A stretch of 64,000 bases of DNA from Coriobacteriaceae bacterium. GTDB lineage: Bacteria; Actinomycetota; Coriobacteriia; Coriobacteriales; Coriobacteriaceae. The notes below the pieces were generated by a model, which made no database searches, was not told where the DNA came from, and saw only the letters and a list, made by a program, of their open reading frames with translations. Of this stretch, positions 19,050-44,493 are shown piece after piece. Both the position numbers and the translations under genes were made by a program. The stretch is from assembly GCA_015062655.1 (NCBI GenBank), contig SUUG01000001.1:1-64000 (forward strand), given 5' to 3'. The stretch's first letter is position 1; each line of letters starts with the position of its first letter.

Positions 19050-19058
19050 GAGAGCAAT

Positions 19059-20680: not shown

Positions 20681-21013
20681 ACGATCAGGATCGAGCCCGG
20701 CAAGCTCCAGGTTGCGAAGCAGTGCCTGCAGTCTGAGGCCGAGTCCATCAACGCGCTCGCGGCTTGCGTGGCTGCGGCCCAAGAGGCGTTTACCGGTTCA
20801 TGGGAGGGCGAGGCCGCGAGCGCCACAGACGGGGTGTTCATGCGTGCCCTGTCTGCGACGCAGCTGGTCTATGACGAGGCGGGCGCGTACTGCGCGGCCG
20901 TTCAGTCCGGAGTGGATGGTTTTTTGGAGATCGACAGGCAACGTGCCCGGGATATGCGCGAAAAGCAACGTGGGCCTCGCGAGGCCGGCCCGGGGCTCTA
21001 CGGGAGGAGGTAA
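20672..21013 (+). CDS. WXG100-family protein, cassette 3
   Basis: This 113-residue helical protein begins MSGTIRIEPGKLQVAKQCLQ, with the W-E-G turn in FTGSWEGEAASATDG at about residues 43-57. It is a close paralogue of the cassette 2 protein at 15162. Its ATG overlaps the preceding stop by four bases in the same way. It should be a secreted or co-secreted partner of the next gene, three bases downstream. The C-terminal ~25 residues, rich in Arg and Gly, differ from the paralogue. Confidence 0.85.
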   Translation: MSGTIRIEPGKLQVAKQCLQSEAESINALAACVAAAQEAFTGSWEGEAASATDGVFMRALSATQLVYDEAGAYCAAVQSGVDGFLEIDRQRARDMREKQRGPREAGPGLYGRR

Positions 21014-21016
21014 CCC

Positions 21017-22477
21017 ATGTTCAGGGTGTCCCCCGCGAAGTATGCCGAGGGCCTCGACGCCCTCAAGTCGGCCTGCGACGGCGCGGATAACATTGCCTAC
21101 CGCACCGACCTGCTGCTCGCCGACTTCCGGCCACTGGCCGAGGGGAGGTTCGGCGAGGCGTCGGCAGAGCGCGGCGCCGAGGTGGGCCTCAAGGCCAAGC
21201 TGCTGTCGCTGTCGCTCTTCGCATTGCTTGAGACGATGCGGGATGGGAAGGACAAGCTTGATGCCGTCGTCGCCGCCCGCGCCGAGCTAGACGCGGTGGC
21301 CGGGTCGGGTGCCGCGGAACCGACCGACCCCGTGCTGGACGCCACGGTGAACGTGTCCGACTCGGCGTCCATCCTCGAGGGCTCGGCGAACGGCGTGGTC
21401 GCGGCGCTTGTGGAGGCGGCGGAGCTGCTCGTCGGCGTCGGCTGGACGGGCCGCCTGCCAGGCGAGCTCGCCCAGGCGGCGGACTGCGCCGCCTGGCAGC
21501 TCGCCTATGCGCAATCGGCCGCCTCCGCTTACGCCGATTACGCCAAGGCGGTGGGCGATTTCGAGGATGCGCTCGTGCCGCGGCTCGACCCGGACGGCTT
21601 CCTGCAGGTCGGCGCGGCGAGGGAGTGGGCCGGCGGGGAGATCGCCGGCGGCGGTCCAGGCATCGGGGAGTGGCTTGCCGCGATCGGGGACGCCGCGGAC
21701 GGCGCCGGCGGTTCCCTTGGGGCCGTCGGCGGGATGCTCAGGGGTTTCGGCGTGGCGGTTGAGGGCAACGAGTCCGCCTTGTCGCGCGCCTACGCCGCCG
21801 TCAAGGGTCTCGGCCCAGACGGGGCGCGGGCGCTCGCGAAGCTGCTCAGCGATGAGGGTAGCATGGGGGAGTTCATCGGTGACCTCGAGGAGGCCGCCCG
21901 GAGGCGCGGCGGCGACCTCGTTGCCGCGATGCGGGACGTCGACTGGGTTAAATTTGGGGTGGACGATGAGGTCGCGGAGGCTTTTGCCAAGACAATCACA
22001 ATAGAGCAGGAGGGGGCGCTGGAATTTTATCGCTGGATTGATGAGTTGGGTGATGAGGCCCTCATCACCGGTGAGAAGTTCGGCAAGCATGCCGATCGCT
22101 TGGGCAAGGTAGCGGCGGGCATCGACCTGCTCCTCACCATCTTGGAAACGGGCCCGGTGGGGCCGGAGGTCGCCTCTCACGTTGCGACGGAGGGCGCCAT
22201 CATCGCCGCGTCGAACGCGGTGGGTTCCGTGGCCGTCCTGGGCGTCGGCGGCGTCGTGGGCGGCGGGGCGATCGCGGTCGGCGGCGTCGCCGCCCTCGGT
22301 GCGGGCGTCGCGCTCGAGAAGTACAAGGAATCCCCTGAGGGGCGGGACTTCCAGCGGGATGTGGACTCCCTCTTCATGGGTATGGCGGGCTTCGGCTCGG
22401 TGCATCCCAACGACTATTTCAGCGAGGCGGGGAAGCGCGAGCAGCTCGCAGCCGTCGAGCGCAGAAAGGACGAGTAG
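21017..22477 (+). CDS. Large LXG/PPE-like type VII substrate candidate, cassette 3
   Basis: This 486-residue protein starts at ATG after GGGAGGAGG. The N-terminal block NIAYRTDLLLADFRPLAEG and the C-terminal block GFGSVHPNDYFSEAGKREQL are nearly the same as at 15507, while the middle differs. Near residues 395-440 a Gly/Val/Ala-rich hydrophobic stretch (AVLGVGGVVGGGAIAVGG) could insert in a membrane. Substrate status is inferred from its place between WXG100 and EspG-like genes. No toxin domain was recognised. Confidence 0.6.
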   Translation: MFRVSPAKYAEGLDALKSACDGADNIAYRTDLLLADFRPLAEGRFGEASAERGAEVGLKAKLLSLSLFALLETMRDGKDKLDAVVAARAELDAVAGSGAAEPTDPVLDATVNVSDSASILEGSANGVVAALVEAAELLVGVGWTGRLPGELAQAADCAAWQLAYAQSAASAYADYAKAVGDFEDALVPRLDPDGFLQVGAAREWAGGEIAGGGPGIGEWLAAIGDAADGAGGSLGAVGGMLRGFGVAVEGNESALSRAYAAVKGLGPDGARALAKLLSDEGSMGEFIGDLEEAARRRGGDLVAAMRDVDWVKFGVDDEVAEAFAKTITIEQEGALEFYRWIDELGDEALITGEKFGKHADRLGKVAAGIDLLLTILETGPVGPEVASHVATEGAIIAASNAVGSVAVLGVGGVVGGGAIAVGGVAALGAGVALEKYKESPEGRDFQRDVDSLFMGMAGFGSVHPNDYFSEAGKREQLAAVERRKDE

Positions 22478-23476
22478 ATGTTCGGCTTCTTTAAGAGACG
22501 CGACGTATCCGTGGAGCCGGTGGCTCCTGACACGCGGGTGGAAGAGGTGCCCTTCACCGCCAAGGAGATATACGCCATCCTGGGGGACGTGGATGCCTCA
22601 ATCTTCATTTGCAACACCACCACGCTCGACCTTCTGCGCCCGGCGGCGATGCGTCCGGACGAGTGGCGGCGGCGCGCCGTGGAGCGCCTTGCACCGGCGG
22701 GCATCGTGGACGACGCCTGCAGCCCCTGTCCCGAGCTCGGGGAGCTGCTCGCGCCGCTCAGGAAGCGCGGTGTTGAGGTGTCCGACGGCACCACCCCCGG
22801 ACCACATGACTCCCGTGATTCCCGCACCTTCTGTCTTGTCGGCACGCGGGAGCGCGCCACGCTCGTGCGGTCCTCCGGAGACGGCCCCCGCCGCACGTTC
22901 ACGCTCTCGGACGCGGGTCCGCGGGAGAAGTGGTGGACTCACGCGCTCCGGTCCGCGGGCTTCCCGCGGGTCAGGTGCGCACCGCCCGCGGCGAGCGTCC
23001 CCTTCATCGAGGGCGATCAAGCTGACGCGGGGTTCCCTGAGGCGTTCATGAGGGGCGATCTCGACCGCGTGCGCGCATTCGCCGAGCGCTGGGGCGCCGA
23101 CCCCGACCGGCTCGCTGAGACGTCGGCTGCCATCGCGCGGGGCCGCCGCGAGGGCGGCCTCGAGATGCGCCGCTTGAGGGTGATCGACGCAACCGAGGGC
23201 GATGTCGGGCTGGTTCCAATTCACGACTTCACGATGCAGCAGCTCCTTGGGGGTGCCGCATACGTTGCCGAAACACGGGTTTTCCCAGGCCTTGGTTTTT
23301 CAATCACGGGCCGTCGCTGCAGGCGCGATGGCATGCCGGAAAACTGGTGTGAGGACGACGCGGCATTTAGCGCGTCCGCTTTCGGCTCCCTCGACTGGCT
23401 AGCGGACGGCGACCTGCTCGCCCACCTCATGTCGAACCCTCCATTCCCCGAGCACCTGACGAGCCCCTGGGCTTGA
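22478..23476 (+). CDS. EspG-like type VII secretion accessory protein, cassette 3
   Basis: This 332-residue soluble protein begins MFGFFKRRDVSVEPVAPDTR, directly after the stop of the preceding gene. The blocks FTAKEIYAILGD, WRRRAVERLAPAGIVDDACS, CPELGELLAPLRKRG and RTFTLSDAGPREKWW are shared with the protein at 16962. So is the C-terminal NPPFPEHLTSPW. The helix-GIVD-PEL pattern is what suggests an EspG relation. The most variable part lies at about residues 150-230, consistent with recognising different partners. The equivalence to EspG is inference. Confidence 0.55.
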   Translation: MFGFFKRRDVSVEPVAPDTRVEEVPFTAKEIYAILGDVDASIFICNTTTLDLLRPAAMRPDEWRRRAVERLAPAGIVDDACSPCPELGELLAPLRKRGVEVSDGTTPGPHDSRDSRTFCLVGTRERATLVRSSGDGPRRTFTLSDAGPREKWWTHALRSAGFPRVRCAPPAASVPFIEGDQADAGFPEAFMRGDLDRVRAFAERWGADPDRLAETSAAIARGRREGGLEMRRLRVIDATEGDVGLVPIHDFTMQQLLGGAAYVAETRVFPGLGFSITGRRCRRDGMPENWCEDDAAFSASAFGSLDWLADGDLLAHLMSNPPFPEHLTSPWA

Positions 23477-23536
23477 GATGGATGAGGGGAAGTCAGGGGT
23501 GGCTTACAACTTCTTCCAGCGCAGAAAGGAACGCAT

Positions 23537-24082
23537 ATGGGCATGCAGTACGGTATGACCTGCGGAACGGGCTCGAGCTCGTCCGGCTCTACCTATGCGG
23601 GCGCGAGTTCCGCCACCTACCGCAATCTGGCACGGCGATGGGACGACAAGGCGGCCGCCTGCAGCGCGACCATCAGCTCGCTCACGGCGTCGTTGGACTA
23701 CGAGAACGGGCAGATGGTCAAGCTGCAGGCGGTCAAGGCAAAGCTCAACGACGCCGCACGGTTGCAAATGGCGGTCGAAGACGATGTGTCGAAGCTCGGG
23801 GCCGACTTGGCGGCGGCGACGGAAATCGCGGGGGCGCGGGAGCGCGCGAACTCGCTGGGCGGCAATACGACGCTGCAGATCGGTGACGCGCAGGCGGCGT
23901 GCCAAGAGCTCATCGACAAGCTGCAGGGCGAGCTGGACACTCTTACCGGTGACCTTGCATCTGCCCGCAAATCGTATGACGACGCGATCGCCAAGGCGAA
24001 ATCGTATAGACACTCCGCCGCAAACGCGGCGGCGCTCGAGAAGAGATACACTTGCATGGATTCTGCTTCGGGGAGGCTGTGA
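23537..24082 (+). CDS. Coiled-coil type VII accessory protein, cassette 3
   Basis: This 181-residue protein has the same Gly/Ser/Tyr/Met-rich start as the one at 18018 (MGMQYGMTCGTGSSSSGSTY). It then has two long helices with KLQAVKAKLNDAARLQM and LQGELDTLTGDLASARKSYD. There is no signal peptide. AAAGGAACGC precedes the ATG. The last base of its stop codon is the first base of the next ATG (24082), so it is translationally linked to the ubiquitin-like gene. The role is inferred as a type VII accessory or targeting factor. Confidence 0.5.
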   Translation: MGMQYGMTCGTGSSSSGSTYAGASSATYRNLARRWDDKAAACSATISSLTASLDYENGQMVKLQAVKAKLNDAARLQMAVEDDVSKLGADLAAATEIAGARERANSLGGNTTLQIGDAQAACQELIDKLQGELDTLTGDLASARKSYDDAIAKAKSYRHSAANAAALEKRYTCMDSASGRL

Positions 24083-24363
24083 TGAAGGACAAGGTGCTTT
24101 TAAACGTGCTGCTGCCGGCAACGGGGAGGCGTTACGAGTTTCGCGTGCCGTACGACATGACGGTCGAGGACGCCGCGCGCATGATCTCCGAGTTGCTGGC
24201 TTCTCGCGAACGAGAGGTGTATGAGGCAAACCTGCAGGCCGACCTTGCGATCATCGACCCGGCGTCCGGCGCGCAGGGCGACATGCTGAGCCCGTGCGAC
24301 CTCATACGGGTGCTGGTGGAAAACGACGTGCTGGTGGACGGCACGCTGGTTGCCGTGGTGTAG
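24082..24363 (+). CDS. YukD/EsaB-like ubiquitin-fold protein
   Basis: This 93-residue protein reads KVLLNVLLPATGRRYEFRVP then YDMTVEDAARMISELL. The beta-hairpin followed by a helix is typical of the ubiquitin-like YukD/EsaB family. These small cytoplasmic proteins are core or regulatory members of Firmicutes-style type VII systems. The C-terminal part (DMLSPCDLIRVLVENDVLVDG) completes the fold. The start at 24082 follows GGGAGGC. It sits between the cassette 3 coiled-coil gene and the DUF6382-FHA gene, a normal neighbourhood for this family. Confidence 0.7.
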   Translation: MKDKVLLNVLLPATGRRYEFRVPYDMTVEDAARMISELLASREREVYEANLQADLAIIDPASGAQGDMLSPCDLIRVLVENDVLVDGTLVAVV

Positions 24364-24371
24364 GCGGACGC

Positions 24372-25540
24372 ATGGCGGAGATCAACTTGAGGTACAGCCG
24401 GCGCTTGCGTGCGTTGGTGCTCAAACCGGGCAAACGCGATGTCGTGAGCTATCGGGTGGCAAATTGTCTCTCCAACTCCGATTTCCCCGAGCTGCTTCGT
24501 CTCCGGTGGGAAGACGCCGACGCCGAGGTGTTCTATTACGGCGTAGAAGGGCTGTCGGAGCTCGATGACTTTATCAGGCGACCGATGTCGCTTGTGCGGT
24601 ATCGGACGATGCTCGAATCGCTGTATGCGGTCATGGATTTGTGCGTGCGCGAGGGCTTGCCGCAGGGGAACGTATGCTTCGATGCATCGTACGTGTATGT
24701 CGATGAGCGCGGTGCCATGCACTTCGCGTTCGTGCCCTTCGAGCGCACGGACGGTATCGGCTCCGCCCTGGACCTGCTGCTGTATCTGAGCGGTCGAGAG
24801 GTTCGCATGGTGCTGCCGCAGGACGAGTCAGCCCGCCAGGCCGTTGCCGACTTCGCCCGGAGCAGGAGCGTGTTGCCCGCTGCGGACCTCGGGGCGTTTT
24901 TGGCAGAGCGTTTTGGCTTGAGCTCCTGCGCGCCCGCCGCGCCAGCGAGCGGTTTGGTCGGTGGCTCGGGGTCTTTGGGATATACGGGCGGCACGGGGCC
25001 TACCGGGGCTACCGGCGCGGCGAAGAAGTCGATGACGTTCAATCCCGTTGCCATGATGGCGGGTGCTCCGTTGCGGAGGGATGTCGCGCATGGCGTGGCG
25101 GCGGAGGTGGCCGGCACCGTCGAATCGGGCCCGCTCGCTAACGTGGCAGAGACCTCGCTGTTGGGCGGGGGAGAGGCGGTGCGCGAGGACGGAGTGTGCG
25201 CGAGGACGGAGTGTCCGCGGGTGCGGAGCTGGCTACCAGCGCGAAGCCCGTCGTGGCGCTCGTGCGCGAGGCCGACGGGGCGACTTACATGCTGCTGGAT
25301 GCGCCTGTAGTATTGGGTCGCTCGCAGACTTGCGACATCACCATCGCCGGGAACAGCGCGCTCAGCAGGCGCCATGCGCAGCTGGACCCCGTGGCGCTCA
25401 CGCTTACCGACCTGGGCTCCGCCAACGGCACCTTCGTGGACGGTGCGCGACTCGCCCCGCAGGCAAGCGTGCCCCTCGCCATTGGCGCCATGTTCACCTT
25501 GGCCAACGAGGGCTTCTGTATCGTTGTGGGACGATCATGA
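24372..25540 (+). pseudogene. DUF6382-FHA (EssB-like) protein, split by a 17-bp tandem duplication
   Basis: The first frame from 24372 encodes ~190 residues of an EssB/DUF6382-type domain (INLRYSRRLRALVL, FYYGVEGLSELDDFI, FDASYVYVDERGAMHFAFVP). A Gly/Ala/Thr-rich linker follows. At 25179-25212 the sequence GTGCGCGAGGACGGAGT is present twice. This adds 17 bases and throws the reading off frame. Removing one copy joins EAVREDG directly to VSAGAEL and restores a C-terminal FHA domain (VVLGRSQTCDITIAG, LTDLGSANGTFVDG) ending at 25540. EssB-like proteins bind EssC in the membrane complex; this version has FHA instead of a membrane anchor. It may be inactive or reversibly switched. Confidence 0.8.
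25179..25212 (+). repeat. 17-bp perfect tandem duplication
   Basis: Two adjacent identical copies of GTGCGCGAGGACGGAGT occupy 25179-25195 and 25196-25212. The unit is not a multiple of three, so one copy gives an open frame and two copies a broken one. Slipped-strand replication or recombination could gain or lose a unit. Confidence 0.95.
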
Positions 25541-33853: not shown

Positions 33854-34208
33854 ATGACATCAAGATGAACAGCAATTTCGATAGCGAACCAGAAGGGCGG
33901 GGCGGGAAAGACGACGCCCACAGCGAGCCTGGCGGCCGCATTCGCCGCGCGCGGCAACCGGGTCCTGGCCCGTGGACGCGGACCCGCAGGGGGACCTGAC
34001 CACATCTTTGGGGTGGGACCCGGATTCGCTCGAGACGACCCTCGCGACCCATATGGAGAAGGCAATCCTCGAGGAGGAGTACCCCGCCCGCGAGGGCATC
34101 CTCGCGCACGAGGAGGGGATCGACCTCATGCCGGCGAATATCGAGCTCTCCGGCATAGAGGTCGCCCTTGTCAACGCGGGGTCCGCTTTTCAGCAACAGA
34201 ATTGTTGA
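33854..34208 (+). pseudogene. ParA-type partition ATPase remnant (ICE/plasmid origin)
   Basis: From the ATG at 33854 (after GGAGGGG) the sequence encodes a ParA start but has TGA at codon 5. It then reads ANQKGGAGKTTPTASLAAAF, a deviant Walker A. An extra C near 33972 shifts the frame. The sense resumes as VDADPQGDLTTSLGWDPDSL and LMPANIELSGIEVALVN, then breaks off at 34208. ParA proteins of this sort open many conjugative elements and plasmids of gut Actinobacteria. Three lesions show it is dead. It marks the left end of the acquired island. Confidence 0.75.
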
Positions 34209-34331: not shown

Positions 34332-36233
34332 ATGTTGAACATGAGATGCTGTCATTTGAACGAGAGGGAATACAGAGATTTGGTCCTGAATTCCCTCTGG
34401 TATTCGCCAGTCCAGGACCAGAGCTCCGGAAATGCGTCTCTTCTCCAATGGGGAGAAGGATCCTTGATCCTGAATTACACAATTGACGGTTGTGTCGCCA
34501 TCATCTCACTCTCATTGTTGTCGGGATGGGCAGATTTTTCTTCAATGCTGGGGAGGGCGCTCGATCGCTTTCTCCTTGAAAAGCCGTTCATCGCCGAGCT
34601 TGTTATATATCTCCTCAACGAGCAGGATGCTCTCTTATTCAGCGGCGTGATTTACAAGTTTGAAAAGCTCGGGAGATTGCCGGGGGGAATCAGGGACTCT
34701 GACGGCGAATGCAATGATCTCTATATATTCGGCTGCTCGGTGGAGACGCAGATTCCACAGTGCCTTTCAAATGTAGACTACGAGAGTGCAACTTTTCCGA
34801 TGCTGCTTGCAAAGCTATTGCCCGCTCGTTATGGAGATGGCCAAGCGATATCCTATCGCGAGAAAGGGGAGACGCATTCGGTTTCATACAGCGCTCTTCC
34901 CGGAGTAATTCTTACCGCAATGCAGCGCTTGACCCTATCTGCTCGCCATGGCGAGACTATTGCGATTCTTGGTGAAAATACTCCATTTTGGTTGGTGGCG
35001 TGCTTAGCGGTTCTTTCTTCAGGCAATACTTTGCTGCCGGTTGATGGGCTCCATATTGATACCGTAATGCTGGCCCGGTGCTCAGTGGTGCTTTGCGACG
35101 ATTCGGTTTCTGCAAATAAAATTGCAGAGATGGGGCTGCGGGCAAGGGTGGTTCTTTATGACGAGGCGTGTAGGGCATCGGTGGAAAAGCCCTCTGCCTC
35201 AGATTTTGATACGGCAAAAGTGAATCCAGGAGACGTTGGGGTTATTGCTTCCACCTCTGGTACGAGCGGTAAAAGCAAGTGGGTGCTGCTAACCCATGAG
35301 AATATGCTTGCGAGTATTTCGCATACGATGCTCGCGATCGACGGTGTCCTGCAACCTCAGAAAGAGACCCTTTTTCCGTGCATGCCTCCATTTCATGCGT
35401 ACAGCATCGTATGCGGTCTTTTGTTGCCGCTGCTTTATGGAAGCAACCTCGACTACGGCTCGTTGGATGTCCCTAGTGTGCCTTCACGTTTCCTGGCCGT
35501 GGATCCTTCGTGCCTTATTACGGTTCCGACAACGCTCAAATCCTTCACAAGGTTGCTGGCCGGTCGGGGAGGGGACTTGACCACGCGCAGGCTTAAATTT
35601 GCGGCGGTTGGTGGAGCTCCGGTCGATTGCGAGCTAATTGATTTAACGGGCCGGCTTGGAGTGACCCTGGTGAGTGGGTATGGGCTTACGGAGTGTACGG
35701 TCTTGGCCTATGCGGAGATTTTTGCGGATGGAGAGCGCACTCCATTTAAGACTTTGGCGGATTCGGTGTTTTGTCACGTACGCGAGATCGATGGGGTTAT
35801 CGAAGTCTATGGGCGCACGGTTGCGAAGGGATATTTTGAGGGGGACGAGTTTAATGGGCACTTCGTTACCTCAGATTTGGGTTGTTTGAAAAATGGTCGA
35901 CTAAGAGTTAGTGGTCGAGCCGACAACCTGATTGTTCTTGATAACGGAGGGAAGATCGCCCCGGAGGTAGTCGAATCTCAACTCTCCTTTTTTCCATCGA
36001 TTGCAGGGGTTCGCATCATTGGTGTCAGGGAGGGAAGCCGGTCGGTAATATGCGCACAGATTGAGGTCGGCGACGGCTTTGATCGCGACGCTGTCATATC
36101 GGACGTGGGGAAGTACAACCAAAAAGTAACAACTCAAGAGCGGGTAATGAAAATTGAGTGGATGAGAGGTGGAGCGCTCACGCGGACCGCGCTCGGAAAG
36201 CTCAAACGTTCGCCCGTCAACGAAGGGAGATGA
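34332..36233 (+). CDS. Adenylate-forming (AMP-binding) ligase with a GNAT-like N-terminal segment
   Basis: This 633-residue cytoplasmic protein has the ANL-superfamily core from about residue 150. A3 is STSGTSGKSKW at 307-317, A5 GYGLTE at 449-454, A7-like VTSDLG, A8 GRADNLIVLDNGGKIAPEVV, and the A10 lysine in TALGKLKR near the end (K623). It should activate an acid as AMP and pass it to the carrier protein at 37737; no carrier domain is fused. The first ~140 residues differ from known ligases. Residues 105-134 (YKFEKLGRLPGGIRDSDGE, then DLYIFG) look like the C-terminal half of a GNAT fold. The ribosome-binding site is weak, so the start is uncertain. The substrate, fatty or amino acid, is unknown. 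Confidence 0.75.
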   Translation: MLNMRCCHLNEREYRDLVLNSLWYSPVQDQSSGNASLLQWGEGSLILNYTIDGCVAIISLSLLSGWADFSSMLGRALDRFLLEKPFIAELVIYLLNEQDALLFSGVIYKFEKLGRLPGGIRDSDGECNDLYIFGCSVETQIPQCLSNVDYESATFPMLLAKLLPARYGDGQAISYREKGETHSVSYSALPGVILTAMQRLTLSARHGETIAILGENTPFWLVACLAVLSSGNTLLPVDGLHIDTVMLARCSVVLCDDSVSANKIAEMGLRARVVLYDEACRASVEKPSASDFDTAKVNPGDVGVIASTSGTSGKSKWVLLTHENMLASISHTMLAIDGVLQPQKETLFPCMPPFHAYSIVCGLLLPLLYGSNLDYGSLDVPSVPSRFLAVDPSCLITVPTTLKSFTRLLAGRGGDLTTRRLKFAAVGGAPVDCELIDLTGRLGVTLVSGYGLTECTVLAYAEIFADGERTPFKTLADSVFCHVREIDGVIEVYGRTVAKGYFEGDEFNGHFVTSDLGCLKNGRLRVSGRADNLIVLDNGGKIAPEVVESQLSFFPSIAGVRIIGVREGSRSVICAQIEVGDGFDRDAVISDVGKYNQKVTTQERVMKIEWMRGGALTRTALGKLKRSPVNEGR

Positions 36234-36925
36234 GCGTCGTGATCGAAGTGGAGAATGTGGTCAGAACATTCAAGACGGAGCGCGTCATCGATAATGCCAG
36301 TTTCGTTCTTAGCTCCTGCGGGGTCTCCGCTCTTGTCGCGCCGAACGGAAGCGGAAAGACTACCCTGATGTCAATTATAGCCGGCTTGATGGAGCCAACC
36401 GAGGGTCGGGTTTTGTTCTCGGACGGAGAGGGAACGAGCGATGTGGCCCTCCTCCTTGCGGGTGACAAAAACCTGTATATGAAGAACACCGTCATGGAGA
36501 ACCTGATGTATTTTGCTGCCCTGAATGGGTACGGCCGTGGGGATATCCAAGGGGATATTGACGATGTGGTTTCCTGGTTTCCGGAGCTGAAGGCCCTTTG
36601 GCGGAAGACAGCGGAATCGCTTTCTTATGGCCAAAAGAGATTGGTGTCTCTGGCGAGCGCGGTCATTTCTAGGAATCGCTACCTTTTGGTTGATGAGGCT
36701 GCTGAGGGTCTTGATGTGGCTAATGTTGAAAGGCTGGTTGAGGCACTGCAAAAGGTTTCGAGCCAGCGGAGCGTGCTTGTGAGCTCCCATGATCTGCGAT
36801 TCGTCTCTAAAGTAACCGATTCAGTGCTTTTCCTGAGCGGGGGGAAGGTTTTACGTGAGTCCATTCATTCCGAGGATGAGCTTAGAAACCGCTATTCGGA
36901 ACTGTTCGGTGAGGTGACGCAATGA
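36230..36925 (+). CDS. ABC transporter ATP-binding protein (exporter)
   Basis: This 231-residue ATPase has Walker A APNGSGKTTL near residue 37. The signature-like SLSYGQKRLVSLASAV is in mid-protein, and Walker B LLVDEAAEGLD follows with the H-loop in VLVSSHDLRFV. The start overlaps the ligase stop by four bases behind GAAGGGAG, so the two are co-translated. With the permease downstream it makes a simple ABC-2-type exporter. Its place in the cluster suggests that it exports the finished peptide or gives self-protection. Confidence 0.88.
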   Translation: MSVVIEVENVVRTFKTERVIDNASFVLSSCGVSALVAPNGSGKTTLMSIIAGLMEPTEGRVLFSDGEGTSDVALLLAGDKNLYMKNTVMENLMYFAALNGYGRGDIQGDIDDVVSWFPELKALWRKTAESLSYGQKRLVSLASAVISRNRYLLVDEAAEGLDVANVERLVEALQKVSSQRSVLVSSHDLRFVSKVTDSVLFLSGGKVLRESIHSEDELRNRYSELFGEVTQ

Positions 36926-37725
36926 ATTCTCCAAGTGATTCGCTGACTTCGGTTGTTCGCCAAGTGAGGGCGTTGCTCTGGACGGCGAGGGTGGAACTGT
37001 CGGGGGCATTCAGGTACCGCGCATCTTTCGTCTCGGATATCGTGGTCTACACTGTGATACTCACGCTGTTCATGATGTCCGGTTCCGGTCATTCTCTATC
37101 TGAGAAATATGGTGTTGCGGACTATAGGGGTCTGCTGTTTGCGGGATATATCGCCTGGACGTTTGCGAACTCAGCTTTGGTCAGCAGCGTGAACAACACG
37201 AGCGCTGAGCTTTCCAGGGGAACTTTCTATCGGAAGTTGAACGCATGTTGCCCGTTGCCTCTCATACAACTAGGGGAGCTGTTGAGCACTGTGCTGATGA
37301 ATTGCATCGTTGCGTTTGCGGTGGCGATTATAGGTGGCATCGTGTGGGATTTGCGGCTATATGTCAGCGGAGTCTCCGTGGGTGCGATAGCGATGTGCTC
37401 TCTCGGCATGTATGGAATGGGCCTTTTGCTGAATGGCGCCACGATTAAGTACAAACGGGTAGGTTCCCTGCTATTTCTCTTCCAGATGGGCTTACTGTTT
37501 GTAAGCGACACCATTCCCTCAGACTCGATTGTGCTGTCGATCACGCGGCTGGTTCCGCTTACGGCTTGCAACGATTTGATTAGGCTTTCCATGATTGGTG
37601 CCGACTTCGTTGAGCCCGCGGTTCGGCTCTGCGCTTCTTCGCTTGCCTGGTTGGCTCTAGGCTATGTTGTCTTCAGATTCTTGCTTTTCAGGGCAAAAAA
37701 AGATGGGAATCTATTGCATTACTAG
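36922..37725 (+). CDS. ABC-2-type transporter permease
   Basis: This 267-residue membrane protein has about six hydrophobic segments, in the layout of ABC-2 exporters. A cytoplasmic N-terminus with VRQVRALLWTARVELSGAF precedes the first helix at ~33-52. The last helix ends in RFLLFRAKKDGN. It overlaps the ATPase stop by four bases (ATGA). Together they probably form a dimer of each subunit, exporting the product across the cytoplasmic membrane. No peptidase C39 domain is fused; processing may be left to the CPBP protease at 41491. Confidence 0.82.
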   Translation: MNSPSDSLTSVVRQVRALLWTARVELSGAFRYRASFVSDIVVYTVILTLFMMSGSGHSLSEKYGVADYRGLLFAGYIAWTFANSALVSSVNNTSAELSRGTFYRKLNACCPLPLIQLGELLSTVLMNCIVAFAVAIIGGIVWDLRLYVSGVSVGAIAMCSLGMYGMGLLLNGATIKYKRVGSLLFLFQMGLLFVSDTIPSDSIVLSITRLVPLTACNDLIRLSMIGADFVEPAVRLCASSLAWLALGYVVFRFLLFRAKKDGNLLHY

Positions 37726-37736
37726 GTGGGATAAGA

Positions 37737-37979
37737 ATGGTTGAAATCGAGATGCAAGAATTCGTCGATGTTGTTGAGAGATACAAAGAGCAAGATCGAG
37801 GGATCGTGCCGGAATCTCGGCTCTTCTACGATTTGGAGCTCGACTCGTTCGACATCATCGCGCTTATCTGCTTGATAGAAGAGACGTTTCACATCTCCAT
37901 AGACCTTAGCCATGAGGGTGACGTCGAAACCATCGAGGACTTCTATCGATTTGTGCGCCTGCATAGCGAGCAGGATTGA
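37737..37979 (+). CDS. Acyl/aminoacyl carrier protein
   Basis: This 80-residue acidic protein has the four-helix carrier layout. The phosphopantetheine site is Ser37 in YDLELDSFDIIALICLIEE. Helix 2 carries the hydrophobic Ile/Leu face, and the C-terminal helix is VETIEDFYRFVRLHS. It is free-standing, not part of a synthase. Two different loading enzymes lie in the same cluster: the adenylate-forming ligase at 34332 and the amino acid:carrier-protein ligase at 41967. No phosphopantetheinyl transferase is present, so the host enzyme must prime it. GGTGGGAT precedes the ATG. Confidence 0.85.
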   Translation: MVEIEMQEFVDVVERYKEQDRGIVPESRLFYDLELDSFDIIALICLIEETFHISIDLSHEGDVETIEDFYRFVRLHSEQD

Positions 37980-38043
37980 ATGTAGCTCCCCTCATAAGTT
38001 GAGCGCTGTTTGTCAGGTTCGGAGAGAAGAAGGGAGGAGAAAA

Positions 38044-38133
38044 ATGAAGAAGGTCTACGAGAAGCCCAGTATCAGCATCATCACGGATGAGACTCCGGTT
38101 CTTACCATGATGGATTGCGGAGCGTGCTGCTAA
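38044..38133 (+). CDS. Small precursor peptide with Cys-rich C-terminus
   Basis: These 29 codons encode a peptide opening MKKVYEKPSISIITDE and ending TMMDCGACC. The M-K-K-x-Y-x-K-P-x-(I/L) start is common in small leader peptides of radical SAM-modified RiPPs. The end has three cysteines in CGACC plus Asp, Thr and Met. A strong AGGAGAAAA stands before the ATG. It lies between the carrier-protein gene and the radical SAM genes, the expected place for a precursor. The leader/core border is not visible; the core is probably within the last 13 residues. It is too short for most gene finders. Confidence 0.72.
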   Translation: MKKVYEKPSISIITDETPVLTMMDCGACC

Positions 38134-38186
38134 CAACTTTGCCGATCGCCCTATTGGATGCGGTATGAACGGGGAGGCGAAAAGGT

Positions 38187-38312
38187 ATGGAAAAGCAGAA
38201 CACTGGCAAAAAGAAGCCCATTTCTGAAAGTGAGAAAGACAAGATTTCGGCTTCCACTCTTAAGGAACCCGTCTTCTCAACTCCTGCTCCTTTGCAGAAG
38301 AGCCAGAAGTAA
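38187..38312 (+). CDS. Second small peptide, Lys/Ser-rich
   Basis: These 41 codons begin MEKQNTGKKKPISESEKDK and end in PLQKSQK. GGGGAGGCGAAAAGGT is a convincing ribosome-binding region. The composition (10 Lys, 8 Ser, no Cys, no Trp) is unlike the first peptide. It could be a second precursor, an acyl-acceptor peptide, a recognition partner, or an immunity or chaperone peptide. It lies 53 bases after the first peptide and before a strong hairpin. There is no family match that I recognise. Confidence 0.55.
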   Translation: MEKQNTGKKKPISESEKDKISASTLKEPVFSTPAPLQKSQK

Positions 38313-38340
38313 ATAGGCCCAATTGAGCGTGGGGAGCTTG

Positions 38341-38371
38341 AGGCGGCTTCCCTCCTAGAGGGAAGCCGCCT
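38341..38371 (+). promoter_or_regulatory. Strong hairpin between the peptide genes and the radical SAM genes
   Basis: AGGCGGCTTCCCT and AGGGAAGCCGCCT form a perfect 13-bp stem with a five-base loop. TTGGAAAAAT follows instead of a T-run. Such a hairpin can act as a partial terminator or a 3' stabiliser, giving more precursor than enzyme mRNA. Confidence 0.7.
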
Positions 38372-38391
38372 TGGAAAAATAGGAGCGCAAA

Positions 38392-39732
38392 ATGCATGTC
38401 TATACCATACGACCCTTCTGCAGGAAAAAGGTTGATAACGCCTATTATTTGCTGTTGAAAAAGAGGAAGGGTGAGCAGGTCAGCGTTATTCAAATCAATG
38501 AAATTGGGAACGATATCGTATTCCTGCTTGAGAAGCATGTTCCGCTTCAATCGATCTTCGAAGAACTTTCCAAAGAATATGAGATTAGCAATGAGATGGC
38601 GGAAAGTGTTCTGGAGGACATTAGGAGCTTTCTTTCCGTGCTGGTGGAATTTGGCTTGTTGGTTGTAGGTGAAAGCGTGGCTGCGAGACTTGGTGTGTCT
38701 TCGAACCCCGCGTCTTCAAATACTCTCCAAATCGGAATGCTCGAACGACTTTATAAGGAAAAGGGCCTGCTTTATAAAGCGTTTATTGAAATAACCTACG
38801 CATGCAATTTACGCTGCAGACACTGCTATCGAACCGAAGCGGTTGAGGGGAGCAAGGCCCACCTGGGAAGCGCTCACATGGACAGGGGGATGGTGTTTGA
38901 GCTTCTTGACCAGCTAGAAAAGGAAGGGGCGGTCGAGGTTTATATAACCGGAGGTGAGGCCTTTCTACACCCTGATATCTTGGATATTTTGGAGTACGCA
39001 TCGAAAAAGAACTTTCTTACCACCGTGCTCACTAATGGGAATGTGATTGCAGACAAATGCCTAGCCCCCTTGCTTTCCAAGATGGATTTGTTCGATATAA
39101 GAGTTTCGATTTACGGTGACCGCAGGGCTCATGACAGGTTTACCTTGCGTTCCGGGTCGTTCGATAAGTCAATGGCGGCGCTCGAATCAATACAGGAATC
39201 GATGGGCGTCGGGACTGCGGTCTATGTGGCGACGAGTGAGTCGATTAATGACCTCGACCACATGGCGGAGACCATAAAAGGAAAAGGGGTTAATCTGTCG
39301 ATTAACCCGGTTATCACCCCAACCTCAGCAGGGGCCTTGTTTCCGCTCGAGTATCGTCTTTCGTTAAGGGATTACGAGCGACTTTGCGGGAAATACAAAA
39401 CTCTTTCTAACGGATCTTCTTGCACAGCGGGGATAAGCCGCTTGAGGATTACTCCTTTTGGCGATGTAGACGGGTGCGAGCTGCTGCCCAACTCCAAAAT
39501 TGGCAATCTTTTCGAATCAAACTTAAAAGCGATTCTTTGCAGTGAGAGGAGGGCGGCATTCGTTCGCTTTCTCGATAAGCTCTCGGAGTCTGCGTCCTGT
39601 TCAAAATGCTCCAAGAGGCCGTTTTGCAACGTTTGTCCTGGCGCGTTCTATCTAGAAACGGGGGGCTGGGGGCTTGCGCCTGAGTATCGGTGCGGAATGA
39701 CTGACGTAAAGATTCAATCGTTCTCGAGGTGA
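38392..39732 (+). CDS. Radical SAM/SPASM peptide-modifying enzyme with PqqD-like N-terminus
   Basis: This 446-residue enzyme has three parts. Residues ~5-95 resemble a PqqD/RRE leader-binding domain (YYLLLKKRKGEQVSVIQINE, FLLEKHVPLQSIFEELSKEY). The radical SAM barrel starts at ~130 with the [4Fe-4S] motif C138-x3-C142-x2-C145 (ACNLRCRHCYR) and the TGGEAFLHPD GGE motif. The SPASM region near the end supplies cysteines for auxiliary clusters (GCELLPN, CSKCSKRPFCNVCPGAF, RCGM). SPASM enzymes make thioether, C-C or C-O crosslinks or epimerise residues in RiPPs. It is probably the first maturase of the CGACC peptide. The exact bond made is unknown. Confidence 0.85.
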   Translation: MHVYTIRPFCRKKVDNAYYLLLKKRKGEQVSVIQINEIGNDIVFLLEKHVPLQSIFEELSKEYEISNEMAESVLEDIRSFLSVLVEFGLLVVGESVAARLGVSSNPASSNTLQIGMLERLYKEKGLLYKAFIEITYACNLRCRHCYRTEAVEGSKAHLGSAHMDRGMVFELLDQLEKEGAVEVYITGGEAFLHPDILDILEYASKKNFLTTVLTNGNVIADKCLAPLLSKMDLFDIRVSIYGDRRAHDRFTLRSGSFDKSMAALESIQESMGVGTAVYVATSESINDLDHMAETIKGKGVNLSINPVITPTSAGALFPLEYRLSLRDYERLCGKYKTLSNGSSCTAGISRLRITPFGDVDGCELLPNSKIGNLFESNLKAILCSERRAAFVRFLDKLSESASCSKCSKRPFCNVCPGAFYLETGGWGLAPEYRCGMTDVKIQSFSR

Positions 39733-39738
39733 TTTGGT

Positions 39739-40974
39739 ATGAGAATGATCAGGCCGGAAATAGCTAGGTGCCAGTTTCACGGCAAAACGTTTTATGTTGA
39801 TCGAACGAATGGCGCTACGCCCGTCTCGCTGAAATGTCATCCCGTCAATGGGGAGCGAAGATTGTGTGTGGGCGAAGAGGGGCCTGAGGACTGCTTCTTC
39901 TTATTTGTGACGGATCGATGCAATTTGGCATGCCCCTTTTGTTTCGAGACTCGGAAGAGGGGTTATTCTGAAAGCACTGAACCGCGGTATTCGGTTGAGC
40001 AGCTGGTGGAGTTCTTCCGGGATACAAGTGTGAAGAAGGCGCAGATATGGTTCTTCGGGGGAGAACCTCTCCTTGGTGACGATTGGATAGTGTCTTGTAT
40101 CGAGGGGCTGGAAAGCGCTGGTATTAATTGCTCGTATACCATTGCCACCAACCTGACTGTATTGAAAGAAGGCATGCGGGCTTACTCGAGAAATAAGGTA
40201 ATACGCTACCTAGTCAATCTCGATGCATGTCTCTGTGTCCCCTCCGCGGGAAAGTATCTGGATGATGTGTTGGATAACGTCTCCCGGCTTTCTCGAGATG
40301 GAATTGAGGTTATGGGGATGTTGGTTTGGTCTCCAAACTGCAAGGTTTCGATTCGCCAGATGATGGAGACATTTGTATCGCGCGGTATGCGTTACTTCGA
40401 TATAAATATAGCTCACTGTTTCAAGTATTCCGTAGAAGATGTTCGTGAATTTGCGTCGAAGCTAGAAACGTTTGCCGATTGGTATATTTCGAACATACTA
40501 GGCCATGATTTACGCTATGCATGGGTCCAGCCGTTTTCCAAATATATCCGCTCCCTGCTGTTTCCGGAAGAACCCCTTCATCAATGTGCTTGCGGCGCGG
40601 GCAAGCAACTTGCAGCGATTGCAACCGACGGTACGCTCTACCCATGTCAGGTTTTGGTTGGGCACGAGGGCTGTTCTTCCGGCTCGGTCTTACAAAAGAG
40701 ATGGGAGCGACCTTACGAAGGGGTTAATGACGACACCGTACCGGCTTGCGCAGCGTGTGACTTGAAATATAGCTGCAAGGGTAGGTGCGTTGCGAATAAT
40801 GTCATTATGGAAGGTAGTGCCTGCGAGCCCGAAGCATCTCGATGCCAGATGGAACATGTGGTATTCGCCTGTAGTGCATATATCGTCGGGGAGCTTCAGA
40901 ATCATCCTGTCGAGTTGGCCGTGCTGCGTAAGGCATTTAGTTATGGGCGGGGGGCCGAGGTTAGTGCTCACTGA
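39739..40974 (+). CDS. Second radical SAM/SPASM enzyme
   Basis: This 411-residue enzyme has C61-x3-C65-x2-C68 in RCNLACPFCFETRKRG and the FFGGEPLLGD motif, so it is a radical SAM protein. The C-terminal half has SPASM-type cysteines: CACGAGKQLAAIATDGTLYP then C, CAACDLKYSCKGRC, and further cysteines near 367-381. It lacks the PqqD-like N-terminus of the first enzyme and may rely on it for leader binding. It lies six bases after that gene, so the two are co-translated. Two radical enzymes suggest two distinct modifications, or a modifying enzyme and one that acts on the carrier-bound group. Confidence 0.84.
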   Translation: MRMIRPEIARCQFHGKTFYVDRTNGATPVSLKCHPVNGERRLCVGEEGPEDCFFLFVTDRCNLACPFCFETRKRGYSESTEPRYSVEQLVEFFRDTSVKKAQIWFFGGEPLLGDDWIVSCIEGLESAGINCSYTIATNLTVLKEGMRAYSRNKVIRYLVNLDACLCVPSAGKYLDDVLDNVSRLSRDGIEVMGMLVWSPNCKVSIRQMMETFVSRGMRYFDINIAHCFKYSVEDVREFASKLETFADWYISNILGHDLRYAWVQPFSKYIRSLLFPEEPLHQCACGAGKQLAAIATDGTLYPCQVLVGHEGCSSGSVLQKRWERPYEGVNDDTVPACAACDLKYSCKGRCVANNVIMEGSACEPEASRCQMEHVVFACSAYIVGELQNHPVELAVLRKAFSYGRGAEVSAH

Positions 40975-41494
40975 AACAGTTCGTTCTGTTTCCGTCGATC
41001 AATATAGGCAGAGCGACGAAGCGTTCCTGTTGTCTTGCCAGGGTTTAGAAGAGTTCGAAGTAACGATCGGGCGCCTACCTTCCGACAGAAGTAATTGTTG
41101 GATTATTAAATATGGGAGTGAGGCGATCGGCTGTGCGGCAATCACCCCTATGAATCTCTTCTGTATCGATTATGTGGAAGTTTCGACATTTGTCCACGCA
41201 TCTCATCGGTTGCTCTCTGCATACGCTCTTCGTGCAGTGCTCAACCAGGCGCTCGGTCTTGCATCGGGGTCGGCCAGACTTCTGTTTCTGGTTTACGGGG
41301 ACAATAGGCGATGCATTACGCTTTTAGATCGCCTCGGGATAGAGTGTGTCGCGGAGATTCCTAGGGCCGCGCTGCATGGTGGGAAGTACGTTTCGGTGCG
41401 CTATTACCTCTATGCTTCAGGCGGGGGCCAACGCTTTGACGATGTAATAGCAGCGAGGATTGACTCTGCTCAGAATGAAGAGAAGGGAACATGA
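40943..41494 (+). CDS. GNAT-like acyltransferase candidate
   Basis: The protein is up to 183 residues. The C-terminal half has a GNAT-like acceptor pattern: LLFLVYGDNRRCITLLDRLG then IECVAEIPRAALHGG and a YYLY strand. The N-terminal half is weak. The ATG at 40943 overlaps the second radical SAM gene by 32 bases. A GTG at 40964 is the alternative, with better spacing from a G-rich site. GNAT enzymes transfer acyl or aminoacyl groups from CoA or carrier proteins, or from tRNA, to amines. With a carrier protein in the cluster, transfer to a peptide amine is a reasonable guess. The family call is tentative. Confidence 0.5.
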   Translation: MGGGPRLVLTETVRSVSVDQYRQSDEAFLLSCQGLEEFEVTIGRLPSDRSNCWIIKYGSEAIGCAAITPMNLFCIDYVEVSTFVHASHRLLSAYALRAVLNQALGLASGSARLLFLVYGDNRRCITLLDRLGIECVAEIPRAALHGGKYVSVRYYLYASGGGQRFDDVIAARIDSAQNEEKGT

Positions 41495-41922
41495 TAAGCG
41501 TTATCTTTGGATACCTTCTGGGGCTTTCAATTGGTTTCGCGCTTTCCCTGCCTCTTCTTCGCCTGACGACGGGTCTGGTTGGGTGGAGGGATGCGATGAA
41601 GGGCTTAAGCTTCTCGCTCAGAGCCGAGACGGTCTTTCAGGTTTGTCTGGAAGAGGTTGCGTGGCGCTCTCTTCCCTGCGCCATTATGGCTCTCGAGTCT
41701 CTTCCCTTCTGGCGATGCGTGGCATTGTCAATCGTTCTCTCAATACTGTTTGTACTGGCGCACAAGTTGTTTTCCTTTAAGGATTTCATCGAGAGATTTA
41801 CCTACACCCTGGTTCTGTCCTTGGGTGCGCTCTTCTTACCGGGGGTAAATTACGGACTGCATCTTGGGAGAAATTTGTGGACGAGAAGCGTCTGCTTGGG
41901 CGATCTGGATTCTGATGACTAG
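41491..41922 (+). CDS. CPBP-family intramembrane protease
   Basis: This 143-residue membrane protein has about four hydrophobic segments. It holds all three CPBP/Abi motifs: EExxxR as E54-E55...R59 (LEEVAWRS), FxxxH as F87...H91 (FVLAH), and HxxxN as H124...N128 (LHLGRN). CPBP proteases cut peptides within or near the membrane. In bacteriocin clusters they act in leader removal or immunity. It overlaps the GNAT-like gene by four bases. Here it is the only peptidase of the cluster, so leader removal is its likely job. It is shorter than usual for the family (~200-300 residues). Confidence 0.72.
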   Translation: MISVIFGYLLGLSIGFALSLPLLRLTTGLVGWRDAMKGLSFSLRAETVFQVCLEEVAWRSLPCAIMALESLPFWRCVALSIVLSILFVLAHKLFSFKDFIERFTYTLVLSLGALFLPGVNYGLHLGRNLWTRSVCLGDLDSDD

Positions 41923-41966
41923 CGGGATGTTGGATTAAGCGACTTTAACGGGTTTTGGAGTGTCTA

Positions 41967-42968
41967 ATGGATGTTGAATGTGGAGCACATGTCTCAGCTT
42001 TTTTCAGGTATCTGGAAGAAAGGCGCGTGCTATACGACTGGGGAAAGAGCGGCGTGCACGCGTATGGGGAAGCGTTCGTCAATAAACTCAAGATGTATGA
42101 ACATGTGATTGGCGAGCAAGCGCGCCGTCTCTTTCCCGGCATTGAATGCATCGCAATGCCGGTAGAGATTCCAGTAGAAATCGCCCGCCGCACCCATCTC
42201 ATGCAGACCATGCCAACAATCCTTTTGTATCCGCACGGTATTGAGGATTGCTACTTCTGCTCGCAGAAATTTAATTTCCAGGAAGAGGCGGTTGGTTGTA
42301 GCGAGCGAAAAGATTGTGCTGCAACAAATATGAGAAGCATGTTGAAACACTCCACATGTCTTCCTCTATATCGACTTCTTGAGGATACGGTAGTGGAAGA
42401 AGGCGGGCGGACTTTTCTCGTCGAAGGTCTGTGCTTTCGAAATGAGCCGGAAAGTGATCCGATGACCTTTCATTTGAGGGAATTTCATATGACGGAGGTG
42501 GTTTTCGTTGGGCCTGAATCATATTGCCGTGAAGGGTTGAAAGCCGCGGAAGGCATCATGGGCGAAGTGGCCAGCGTCTTGGGGGAGGGGTATCACCGAG
42601 TGCTTGCATCTGACTCCTTTTGCCCTCAGCTAGGCGACCGGATTTCCGGATTCCAGAAAATGACTTCTGCGAAGCACGAGTATATGTTTCCGTTGTTAGA
42701 GGATGGGCGCCTTCTCGCGTGCGGGTCGTCGAACAATCATAGGAACACTTTCTCTAAAACGTTCAACATCCGCTTGAGGGACGGTGGTTTGGCATCAAGT
42801 TCTTGTTTTGCTTTCGGATTGGAGAGGCTGTGCTTTGTGGATTATGCCCATGAGTTTGCTCGTTACGTCCGGGCTGACGGAGTTGAGGGGCTGTGCGAGG
42901 CAGAAAAAGATTCCTTAGTTAAAGCCGACGCAAGACCAGGCAAACGGATCAGCTCGCATCACAAGTAG
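41967..42968 (+). CDS. Amino acid:[carrier protein] ligase (seryl-tRNA synthetase-like)
   Basis: This 333-residue protein is a class II aminoacyl-tRNA-synthetase-like core without a tRNA-binding arm. Motif 2 is VEGLCFRNEPESDPMTFHLR, and motif 3 is SSSCFAFGLERLCF near residue 280. The Cys-Glu-Cys zinc ligands expected of the family are probably C131, E172 and C280. Enzymes of this group (described in Bradyrhizobium and other bacteria) attach Gly or Ala to the pantetheine arm of a small carrier protein. The partner is surely the carrier at 37737. The ATG at 41967 follows TTTTGGAGTG. Extra cysteines at 95, 98, 111 and 117 lie in an insertion. It is the last gene of the cluster. Confidence 0.82.
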   Translation: MDVECGAHVSAFFRYLEERRVLYDWGKSGVHAYGEAFVNKLKMYEHVIGEQARRLFPGIECIAMPVEIPVEIARRTHLMQTMPTILLYPHGIEDCYFCSQKFNFQEEAVGCSERKDCAATNMRSMLKHSTCLPLYRLLEDTVVEEGGRTFLVEGLCFRNEPESDPMTFHLREFHMTEVVFVGPESYCREGLKAAEGIMGEVASVLGEGYHRVLASDSFCPQLGDRISGFQKMTSAKHEYMFPLLEDGRLLACGSSNNHRNTFSKTFNIRLRDGGLASSSCFAFGLERLCFVDYAHEFARYVRADGVEGLCEAEKDSLVKADARPGKRISSHHK

Positions 42969-43152: not shown

Positions 43153-44493
43153 GGTACTGTCAAGAATCTTGCGCGCTTTCCGACAACCCCTTAGGCCCGC
43201 CCTCCGGTACGGCTACCCCTCCAGCAGCGTCACGTCCAGGTAGCGGCGGGACCCCCCTTTCGCTCTCCGCGACGTACTTGAGCCTCGCGGTGACGGGCAT
43301 GGGTGCCGACTTTCCGTCCGGGAAGGCGCCGACCACGCGGGTCCGCCTGCGTATCTCGCGGTTCAGTCGCTCGATGGCGTTGTCGGTCCTGACCCTCCTC
43401 CAGTGCTCGCGAGGGAACCCCGTGCAGGTCAGCGTCTCGGCGTGGCCGTCCCTGACGACCTTGGCGGCCTCCCTGGGCTTTGATCCCTCGAGCTCGTCCG
43501 CCACGGCGAGCGCCTCGGCCCCGGCGGCGTCGCGCGACCCCATGGCGTGGACCGCCTTGGGCGTCGCCGCGACGCCTGCGCGCCTGGACTTCGGCGCCTT
43601 GGCTAGCGCGTTGCGGTAGAGGTGCACGGTGCGGCGCCGGCAGGCGGCCTCAGGGAAGGCCTCGGCCATCGAGCCGACCGTGCCCGCCGCCTCGTCGCCG
43701 GTGAACGTGCGCGCGCCTCGGAGGCCCCCGGACCTCAGCCACGAGAGGGACTCCCGCCAGCGCCCCGACGACCCCGTGAAGCCCTCGGCCGCGCCGATGA
43801 CCTCGCGGCAGCCGTCGTCGCTGACGCCGATGGCGATCATGGCGGCGACGCTCTCGCAGGAGCCGCCCCAGCTGCGCCTCAGGTGGATCCCGTCGACGCA
43901 GACGTAGGGGCAGGCCCGCTCGAGCGGCCCGTTCCGCCACTCCTCGACCGAGGCGAACGCCCTCTCGCTGAGGTTCGAGACGGTCGCGGCGGAGGCGCTG
44001 GGGCCCCACAGGATCTCCGAGACGTCCTCGATGCGCCTGGTGGAGGCGCCGGCCAGGCGCATCTCCGTCATGGCCTCCCCCACGCTCGACTCTCGCCTGC
44101 GGCAGCGCTCGGTGATCGCGGTCGTGAAGCGGACCCCCTCGAGCTTGGGCGTGCGGGCCGTGACCTCGCCGGACGACGTGGTCGGGCCCCTGTCGCAACG
44201 TCCGGCGCGATACGCCTCCCGGTCTGCGGCGCGCTCGTGGCGCCCGGCCCCGACGAGATCTTCCGCCTCCGCCTCGAGCAGGCCGTTCAGCGTATCCCCG
44301 ACGGTCCTCCTGACGAGTTCGCGCAGATCGGACCCGAGGGAGTCCTCGTCCAATGTTACGATGGGTTCGGGCATGGCCAACCTCCAGCATGTTTCAAGAA
44401 TGGACGACTCGAATCATACCGAGGCGGGCCGTGCCCTCCCTTCTATCTGGACGCTATTCTGCTGTCAAAGTGCGCAAGAAATTGTACGTTACC
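43153..44493 (-). mobile_element. IS256-family insertion sequence (about 1.34 kb)
   Basis: The element carries one transposase gene. Candidate terminal inverted repeats are at 43153-43179 and 44467-44493. They pair at about 19 of 27 positions around the shared core TCTTGCGC(G/A)CTTT. No clear target-site duplication was found, so the exact ends are provisional. It lies at the right border of the peptide cluster, and the HxlR gene follows. Confidence 0.75.
43160..44380 (-). CDS. IS256-family (mutator-type) transposase
   Basis: This 406-residue DDE transposase has the IS256/Mutator layout. The N-terminal block runs DSLGSDLRELVRRTVGDTLN. The catalytic region includes PYVCVDGIHLRRSWGGS with the first Asp, and the second acidic region TFTGDEAAG. 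The conserved C-terminal signature is RTDNAIERLNREIRRRTRVV followed by GAFPDGKS. It looks complete. It moves DNA by copy-out-type transposition with circular intermediates. Its GC-rich codon use matches the host more than the cluster it adjoins. It is transcribed away from the HxlR gene. Confidence 0.9.
   Translation of the reverse strand: MAMPEPIVTLDEDSLGSDLRELVRRTVGDTLNGLLEAEAEDLVGAGRHERAADREAYRAGRCDRGPTTSSGEVTARTPKLEGVRFTTAITERCRRRESSVGEAMTEMRLAGASTRRIEDVSEILWGPSASAATVSNLSERAFASVEEWRNGPLERACPYVCVDGIHLRRSWGGSCESVAAMIAIGVSDDGCREVIGAAEGFTGSSGRWRESLSWLRSGGLRGARTFTGDEAAGTVGSMAEAFPEAACRRRTVHLYRNALAKAPKSRRAGVAATPKAVHAMGSRDAAGAEALAVADELEGSKPREAAKVVRDGHAETLTCTGFPREHWRRVRTDNAIERLNREIRRRTRVVGAFPDGKSAPMPVTARLKYVAESERGVPPLPGRDAAGGVAVPEGGPKGLSESAQDS

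Follow-up and report, generated by a model that had tools for sequence, protein, structure and literature searches.

A gene cluster at positions 34,332–42,968 of a 64,000-nucleotide stretch of Coriobacteriaceae bacterium DNA (assembly GCA_015062655.1, contig SUUG01000001.1, positions 1–64,000 of the forward strand; hereafter the window) combines two radical S-adenosylmethionine (SAM) enzymes of the SPASM type and two small candidate precursor peptides with a free carrier protein, an adenylate-forming acyl ligase, and an amino acid:[carrier protein] ligase. Its gene content very probably specifies a ribosomally synthesized and post-translationally modified peptide (RiPP), and it is likely that a carrier-dependent acylation or aminoacylation is coupled to this pathway in some form. 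The specific model that we favor, an acquired radical SAM RiPP (RaS-RiPP) cluster with a built-in carrier-protein acylation module, we place at even chances; these three gradings are judgements and were not computed. A narrower version, tentative and on balance somewhat unlikely, is that the radical-SAM-matured peptide gains an amino acid, as an extension or a cap, from a pantetheine carrier charged by a relative of the aminoacyl-tRNA synthetases, which would be a tRNA-free, template-free addition to a RiPP. The cluster is probably a new variant of the RaS-RiPPs, with a mechanism deduced from its genes.

Organization of the Cluster

The region is a run of co-directional, closely packed genes, all on the plus strand according to the open reading frame (ORF) list and the sequence. 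Its features are as follows.

34332–36233, plus strand: adenylate-forming acyl ligase, 633 residues, with the fold at residues ~160–630 (Pfam AMP-binding, 5.9e-31)
36230–36925, plus strand: ABC exporter ATPase (Pfam ABC_tran, 2.4e-18)
36922–37725, plus strand: ABC-2-like permease with about five transmembrane-like segments and no family match
37737–37979, plus strand: free carrier protein, 80 residues, with Ser37 in DSF (PP-binding, 1.1e-5; NCBIfam ACP, 1.2e-9)
38044–38133, plus strand: candidate precursor peptide 1, 29 residues, MKKVYEKPSISIITDETPVLTMMDCGACC, with the Shine-Dalgarno (SD) sequence GGGAGGAG before its ATG
38187–38312, plus strand: peptide 2, 41 residues, Lys/Ser-rich, MEKQNTGKKKPISESEKDKISASTLKEPVFSTPAPLQKSQK, candidate second precursor or accessory peptide, with the SD sequence GGGGAGG before its ATG
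38340–38373, plus strand: strong hairpin between the peptide and enzyme genes (segment −37.6 kcal/mol, z −3.4)
38392–39732, plus strand: SPASM1, PqqD-radical SAM-SPASM enzyme (Pfam PqqD, 1.5e-6; Radical_SAM, 2.4e-18; SPASM, 5.2e-6)
39739–40974, plus strand: SPASM2, radical SAM-SPASM enzyme of PapB-like architecture (Radical_SAM, 1.2e-12; TIGR04085 SPASM, 33.7 bits against a cut-off of 27)
40964–41494, plus strand: GNAT-like protein, candidate acyl/aminoacyl transferase, starting at GTG 40964 or ATG 40943 (Acetyltransf_1 as sole match, E 0.07)
41491–41922, plus strand: CPBP/Rce1-type membrane protease (Rce1-like, 9e-4, below the Pfam cut-off)
41955–42968, plus strand: amino acid:[carrier protein] ligase resembling seryl-tRNA synthetase (SerRS), probably starting at ATG 41967 (PRK07080, 5.5e-28)

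All ten features named in the original prediction were recovered at their place and on their strand by the ORF list, the sequence, and Pfam/NCBIfam searches. Adjacent genes overlap by 4 bases at three junctions (among them those between the acyl ligase and ATPase genes and between the ATPase and permease genes) and by a longer stretch at a fourth, with short gaps elsewhere.

Radical SAM Enzymes and Candidate Precursors

The predicted RiPP pathway is well supported by the PqqD-SPASM fusion, the second SPASM enzyme, the SD-preceded small ORFs, the hairpin, the exporter, and the membrane protease, so that this part of the original prediction held up. Leader binding is the function of PqqD domains, and SPASM enzymes introduce cross-links or other changes into peptide residues. 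In SPASM1, the PqqD domain lies at residues 32–90, and both SPASM enzymes have a full Cys complement, including the CxxxCxxC motif and the auxiliary-cluster Cys. SPASM2 has PapB as its best NCBIfam match, at 111.9 bits and below the cut-off of 340.

Precursor genes followed by enzyme genes are the usual layout of such clusters. Peptides 1 and 2 are the only SD-preceded ORFs of at least 25 residues in the 412-base gap that contains them, and two or more such ORFs arose in 2.7% of dinucleotide shuffles of this gap. Peptide 1 ends in DCGACC and has Cys at C25, C28, and C29 only, at its C-terminus and with no Asp or Glu after them; it matches an SSH RaS-RiPP peptide model weakly (E 0.03). Peptide 2 contains no Cys, and family searches returned no relatives of it. 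The hairpin is a candidate attenuator or processing element, and an Rfam search of the cluster region gave no match.

The Carrier Protein and the Two Ligases

The carrier protein and amino acid:carrier ligase proposed in the original prediction are real, with the active-site residues preserved in each, and their genes are interspersed among those for the peptides and SPASM enzymes. Ligases of this type load an amino acid onto a carrier without tRNA (PMC9437257). The window ligase scores 97.8 bits against NCBIfam PRK07080, below its cut-off of 357, and is at best a divergent relative of that equivalog. It has a SerRS-like catalytic core without the tRNA-binding arm, and aligns to the solved Bll0957 protein with an E of 2e-14. 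All three zinc ligands of Bll0957 are conserved (C135, E181, and C284). The motif-2 and motif-3 arginines are R162 and R291, respectively, and a carrier protein gene (37737–37979) lies in the same operon. The ligase is not the housekeeping SerRS; since the host encodes its own full-length SerRS elsewhere in the genome (527.7 bits), the cluster gene is not needed for tRNA charging. The host genome also encodes one phosphopantetheinyl transferase.

The acyl ligase retains intact A3 (TSGTSGKSK), A5 (GYGLTE), A7/A8 (TSDLG, GRADNLI), and A10 (GKLKR) motifs, and is closer to acyl-CoA synthetases and malonyl-CoA synthetase than to the amino acid adenylation domains of nonribosomal peptide synthetases (NRPSs). 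The fold is preceded by an N-terminal extension of ~155 residues (1–155) that the original prediction had not mentioned, and for which Pfam, NCBIfam, PHROGs, and PDB sequence searches returned no relatives. By eye, its end (GRLPGGIRDSDGECNDLYIFG) appeared GNAT-like, an assignment that the same searches did not support. The separate protein that the original prediction had called GNAT-like is present, while the label itself comes from the E 0.07 match. The permease shows no peptidase domain, and the membrane protease carries all three of the EExxxR, FxxxH, and HxxxN motifs.

These features bear on a lipidated RaS-RiPP, an alternative that we consider unlikely. Here the acyl ligase would load a fatty or other carboxylic acid onto the carrier and the GNAT-like protein would acylate a Lys or the N-terminus, as in the goadvionins and selidamides, with the amino acid:carrier ligase giving only a spacer residue or minor cap. 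Such a product would suit the affinity of the acyl ligase for the acyl-CoA and malonyl-CoA synthetases and the Lys-rich 41-residue peptide, and GNAT enzymes are already known to acylate RiPPs, namely the selidamides (PMC9505594). However, the GNAT assignment is marginal, fatty-acid specificity is not readable from sequence, and retention of a dedicated amino acid:carrier ligase is left unexplained.

Proposed Mechanism

In the model of an acquired RaS-RiPP cluster with its own acylation module, the PqqD domain of SPASM1 would bind the leader of the 29-residue peptide (and possibly that of the 41-residue peptide), and SPASM1 and SPASM2 would modify the Cys-rich C-terminus, most likely, going by their family, with thioether or carbon cross-links. 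In parallel, the SerRS-like ligase would load a small amino acid onto the holo-carrier protein and the adenylate-forming ligase would activate an organic acid. An acyl or aminoacyl group would next pass to a peptide amine (the N-terminus or a Lys), transferred by the GNAT-like protein, the acyl ligase N-terminal domain, or both, before the CPBP protease cleaves off the leader and the product leaves through the ABC pair. Extension, capping, or acylation of the peptide from a pantetheine-bound donor is a plausible outcome. Gene order, intact motifs, ribosome-binding sites, the hairpin, and foreign composition are observed, whereas every substrate and transfer step in this scheme is one that we infer.

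Alternatively, the peptide may serve as a scaffold for assembling an amino-acid-derived small molecule that is later cut off, in a pearlin-like manner but with the aminoacyl group drawn from the carrier instead of tRNA. An aminoacyl donor system, a small peptide, modifying enzymes, and a membrane protease do occur together here, and building on a peptide scaffold has a precedent in the pearlins (PMC9303977). The operon contains no PEARL/LanB-like ligase, however, and two SPASM enzymes with a Cys-rich C-terminus suggest that encoded residues are modified, which makes this alternative improbable.

If the proposed scheme is correct, a single short operon would unite two ways of making peptides: ribosomal templates with radical cross-linking, and aminoacyl or acyl donors held on a carrier. 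Few physiological roles have been assigned to amino acid:carrier ligases, and a RiPP context would provide one of these enzymes with a concrete, testable substrate. Because it is <9 kb and looks self-contained, the operon can be rebuilt in a laboratory host.

Relatives of the Cluster and the Case for a Single Pathway

Ligase searches covered 397 genomes of the order, about 1,150 clostridial genomes in three sets of 391, 392, and 375 (with some genomes in two sets), viral contigs, plasmids, phages, and, by pattern scan, GTDB contigs. None of these collections yielded a counterpart of the entire cluster, and the only ligases returned were distant ones in other contexts. SPASM1 and SPASM2 had no match among viral contigs. 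Within the order, SPASM2 matched only proteins that are 26–27% identical, from radical SAM-ABC loci that belong to the same genus and contain no carrier genes, and its plasmid matches (Anaerococcus, Actinomyces) lie within other radical SAM-ABC clusters; neither set was accepted as a homologous cluster.

The nearest ligase relatives found are about 27–31% identical and come from loci that encode NRPS or ketosynthase III enzymes in Slackia, Gordonibacter, Ruminococcus, Lachnospiraceae, and other clostridia (L010, L011, L015, L016, L023, and L045). L015 and L016 each have three consecutive genes for a stand-alone AMP ligase, a carrier, and an amino acid:carrier ligase, a co-occurrence that counts in favor of the proposed model. 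Carriers and ligases of this type rank among the top matches to those of the window, whose carrier is matched best by the ones from L023 and L015. The cluster and L015/L016 share this composition, while a tree of AMP ligases does not support shared descent.

This trio raises the possibility that two pathways occupy one operon, in which the carrier and both ligases would make a small non-ribosomal N-acyl amino acid and the radical SAM and peptide genes a separate RiPP. L015 and L016 indeed hold the trio without radical SAM genes, and we know of no RaS-RiPP operon that contains it. In the window, however, the members of the trio stand on both sides of the RiPP genes and share overlapping junctions with their neighbors, and there is a single exporter only. 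We regard two pathways as quite unlikely, somewhat more so than lipidation. One pathway is likelier than two neighbors because the carrier (37737) and its presumed ligase (41955) lie to either side of the peptide and SPASM genes, and it is further favored because four operon junctions overlap. The interleaving, with the carrier before the peptides and the ligase after the SPASM genes, is the strongest argument for a single pathway.

Co-occurrence with radical SAM enzymes was evaluated by a motif screen of 17 other ligase loci. No radical SAM gene was found nearby in 14 of them, which belong to NRPS/polyketide synthase-like or BtrH-type pathways, and two (L024 and L025) have one each. In the remaining locus (L044; clostridial, G647 contig C164, 471–12908), a PqqD, a radical SAM gene, and three SPASM enzymes adjoin the ligase and carrier, together with a BtrH-like acyltransferase, an HPr-kinase-like protein, and a nucleotidyltransferase. 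This independent pairing of ligase and carrier with PqqD and SPASM enzymes supports the proposed model, and indicates that the combination of ligase and SPASM enzyme is rare, though not unique to the window; the exact gene set of the window cluster had no second instance in the data searched. A further radical SAM gene of L044 is seemingly interrupted, and in L048 another stretch, unscored by the motif screen, may also be radical SAM-like. An amino acid:carrier ligase and carrier, with ABC exporter and transposase-like genes, also occur at 13200–14695 of L078 (MT835751.1), a contig that is labeled bacteriophage and is probably bacterial. Because no homologous cluster was found and 14 of the 17 loci had no radical SAM gene by motif, the conservation check suggested by the original prediction neither supports nor refutes the hybrid idea.

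Several points weigh against the model. The transferase is its weakest link: both candidates (the GNAT-like protein and the acyl ligase N-terminal domain) are weakly identified, and single-sequence structure models of each were unusable (predicted local distance difference test, pLDDT, about 40). No part of the model is backed by conservation of a homologous cluster. To these are added the 14 ligase loci without a radical SAM gene, an AMP-ligase tree that does not join the window acyl ligase to the L015/L016 trio and so gives no shared descent, and the absence of a clear precursor peptide from L044.

Origin and Genomic Surroundings

The cluster looks horizontally acquired, because its GC content of ~50% lies between flanks of 64–71% and its neighbors are a ParA-like remnant and a transposase.

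33972–34208: ParA-like remnant (DADPQGDLTTSLGW...), truncated immediately before the cluster
43160–44380, minus strand: Mutator-family (IS256-like) transposase, directly adjoining the cluster on the right (Pfam, 5.5e-70)

The left flank also encodes GroES/GroEL, read from the ORFs, and the host, a gut-type actinobacterium with a 2.07-Mb assembly, belongs to the same order as Slackia exigua. The ParA-like remnant may be what is left of a plasmid or integrated element. Foreign composition, the adjoining transposase, and occurrence in one genome of the order only would also fit a silent or incomplete island, that is, a recently acquired fragment that is unexpressed or without an essential gene. 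All cluster ORFs and catalytic motifs are intact by motif check, however, and we give such an island the lowest probability of the alternatives, just under that of a scaffold. The cluster is real, intact, and a singleton in the data searched, and it is probably functional.

Elsewhere in the window, a Type VII secretion-like locus (6456–25310) contains several similar ~480-residue proteins and ~170–190-residue helical proteins in repeated sets, with an FtsK/EssC-like ATPase bearing an FHA-type N-terminus at 10879–15165. At the right edge lies a second AMP-binding gene, divided between two frames (G000:C4:63849–64912), followed 1.7 kb later and beyond the edge by a carrier protein (G000:C4:66601–66801); the pair resembles a frameshifted D-alanylation operon of the dltA-dltC type.

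Comparison with Known Systems

The amino acid:carrier ligase shares with the Bll0957 family the SerRS-like core, the Cys/Glu/Cys zinc ligands, the missing tRNA-binding arm, and a carrier in the same operon, and differs in its distance from the nearest members found and in its radical SAM RiPP setting. The NRPS- and ketosynthase-III-containing loci hold its closest relatives and, in L015/L016, the consecutive trio, but in them condensation-like enzymes are seen instead of radical SAM enzymes and a precursor peptide. L044 resembles the window cluster in that its ligase and carrier have PqqD and three SPASM enzymes as neighbors, and differs in its BtrH-like acyltransferase, in showing no clear precursor, and in enzymes that are only distantly related.

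Like the goadvionins, lipolanthines, and selidamides, the window cluster would couple a RiPP to a carrier- or CoA-bound acyl group, and the goadvionins and selidamides use a GNAT-type transferase, a role for which the GNAT-like protein (E 0.07) is a candidate here. To our knowledge, none of these three groups has an amino acid:carrier ligase. They are lanthipeptide-type products made without radical SAM enzymes (partly after PMC9505594), whereas no lanthionine synthetase, as in goadvionins and phaeornamide, was found among the cluster ORFs. Searches of open-licence papers yielded no description of a radical SAM RiPP with a carrier protein, in agreement, as far as these searches show, with the original statement that no described class has this set.

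Among RaS-RiPPs and ranthipeptides (PapB, PqqD-SPASM maturases), we know of no operon with an amino acid:carrier ligase, a carrier protein, and an adenylate-forming ligase. The precursor family is also new, matching one RaS-RiPP peptide model at E 0.03 only; SPASM2 scores below the cut-off for the PapB maturase, and neither peptide carries the CxxxD/E pattern of ranthipeptide substrates. Shared with these systems are a PqqD-type leader-binding domain, SPASM enzymes with full cluster motifs, a small candidate precursor gene just 5′ of them, and ABC export. By its predicted enzymes the cluster belongs with the RaS-RiPPs, having two SPASM maturases and a leader-recognition domain (PqqD, a RiPP recognition element [RRE]).

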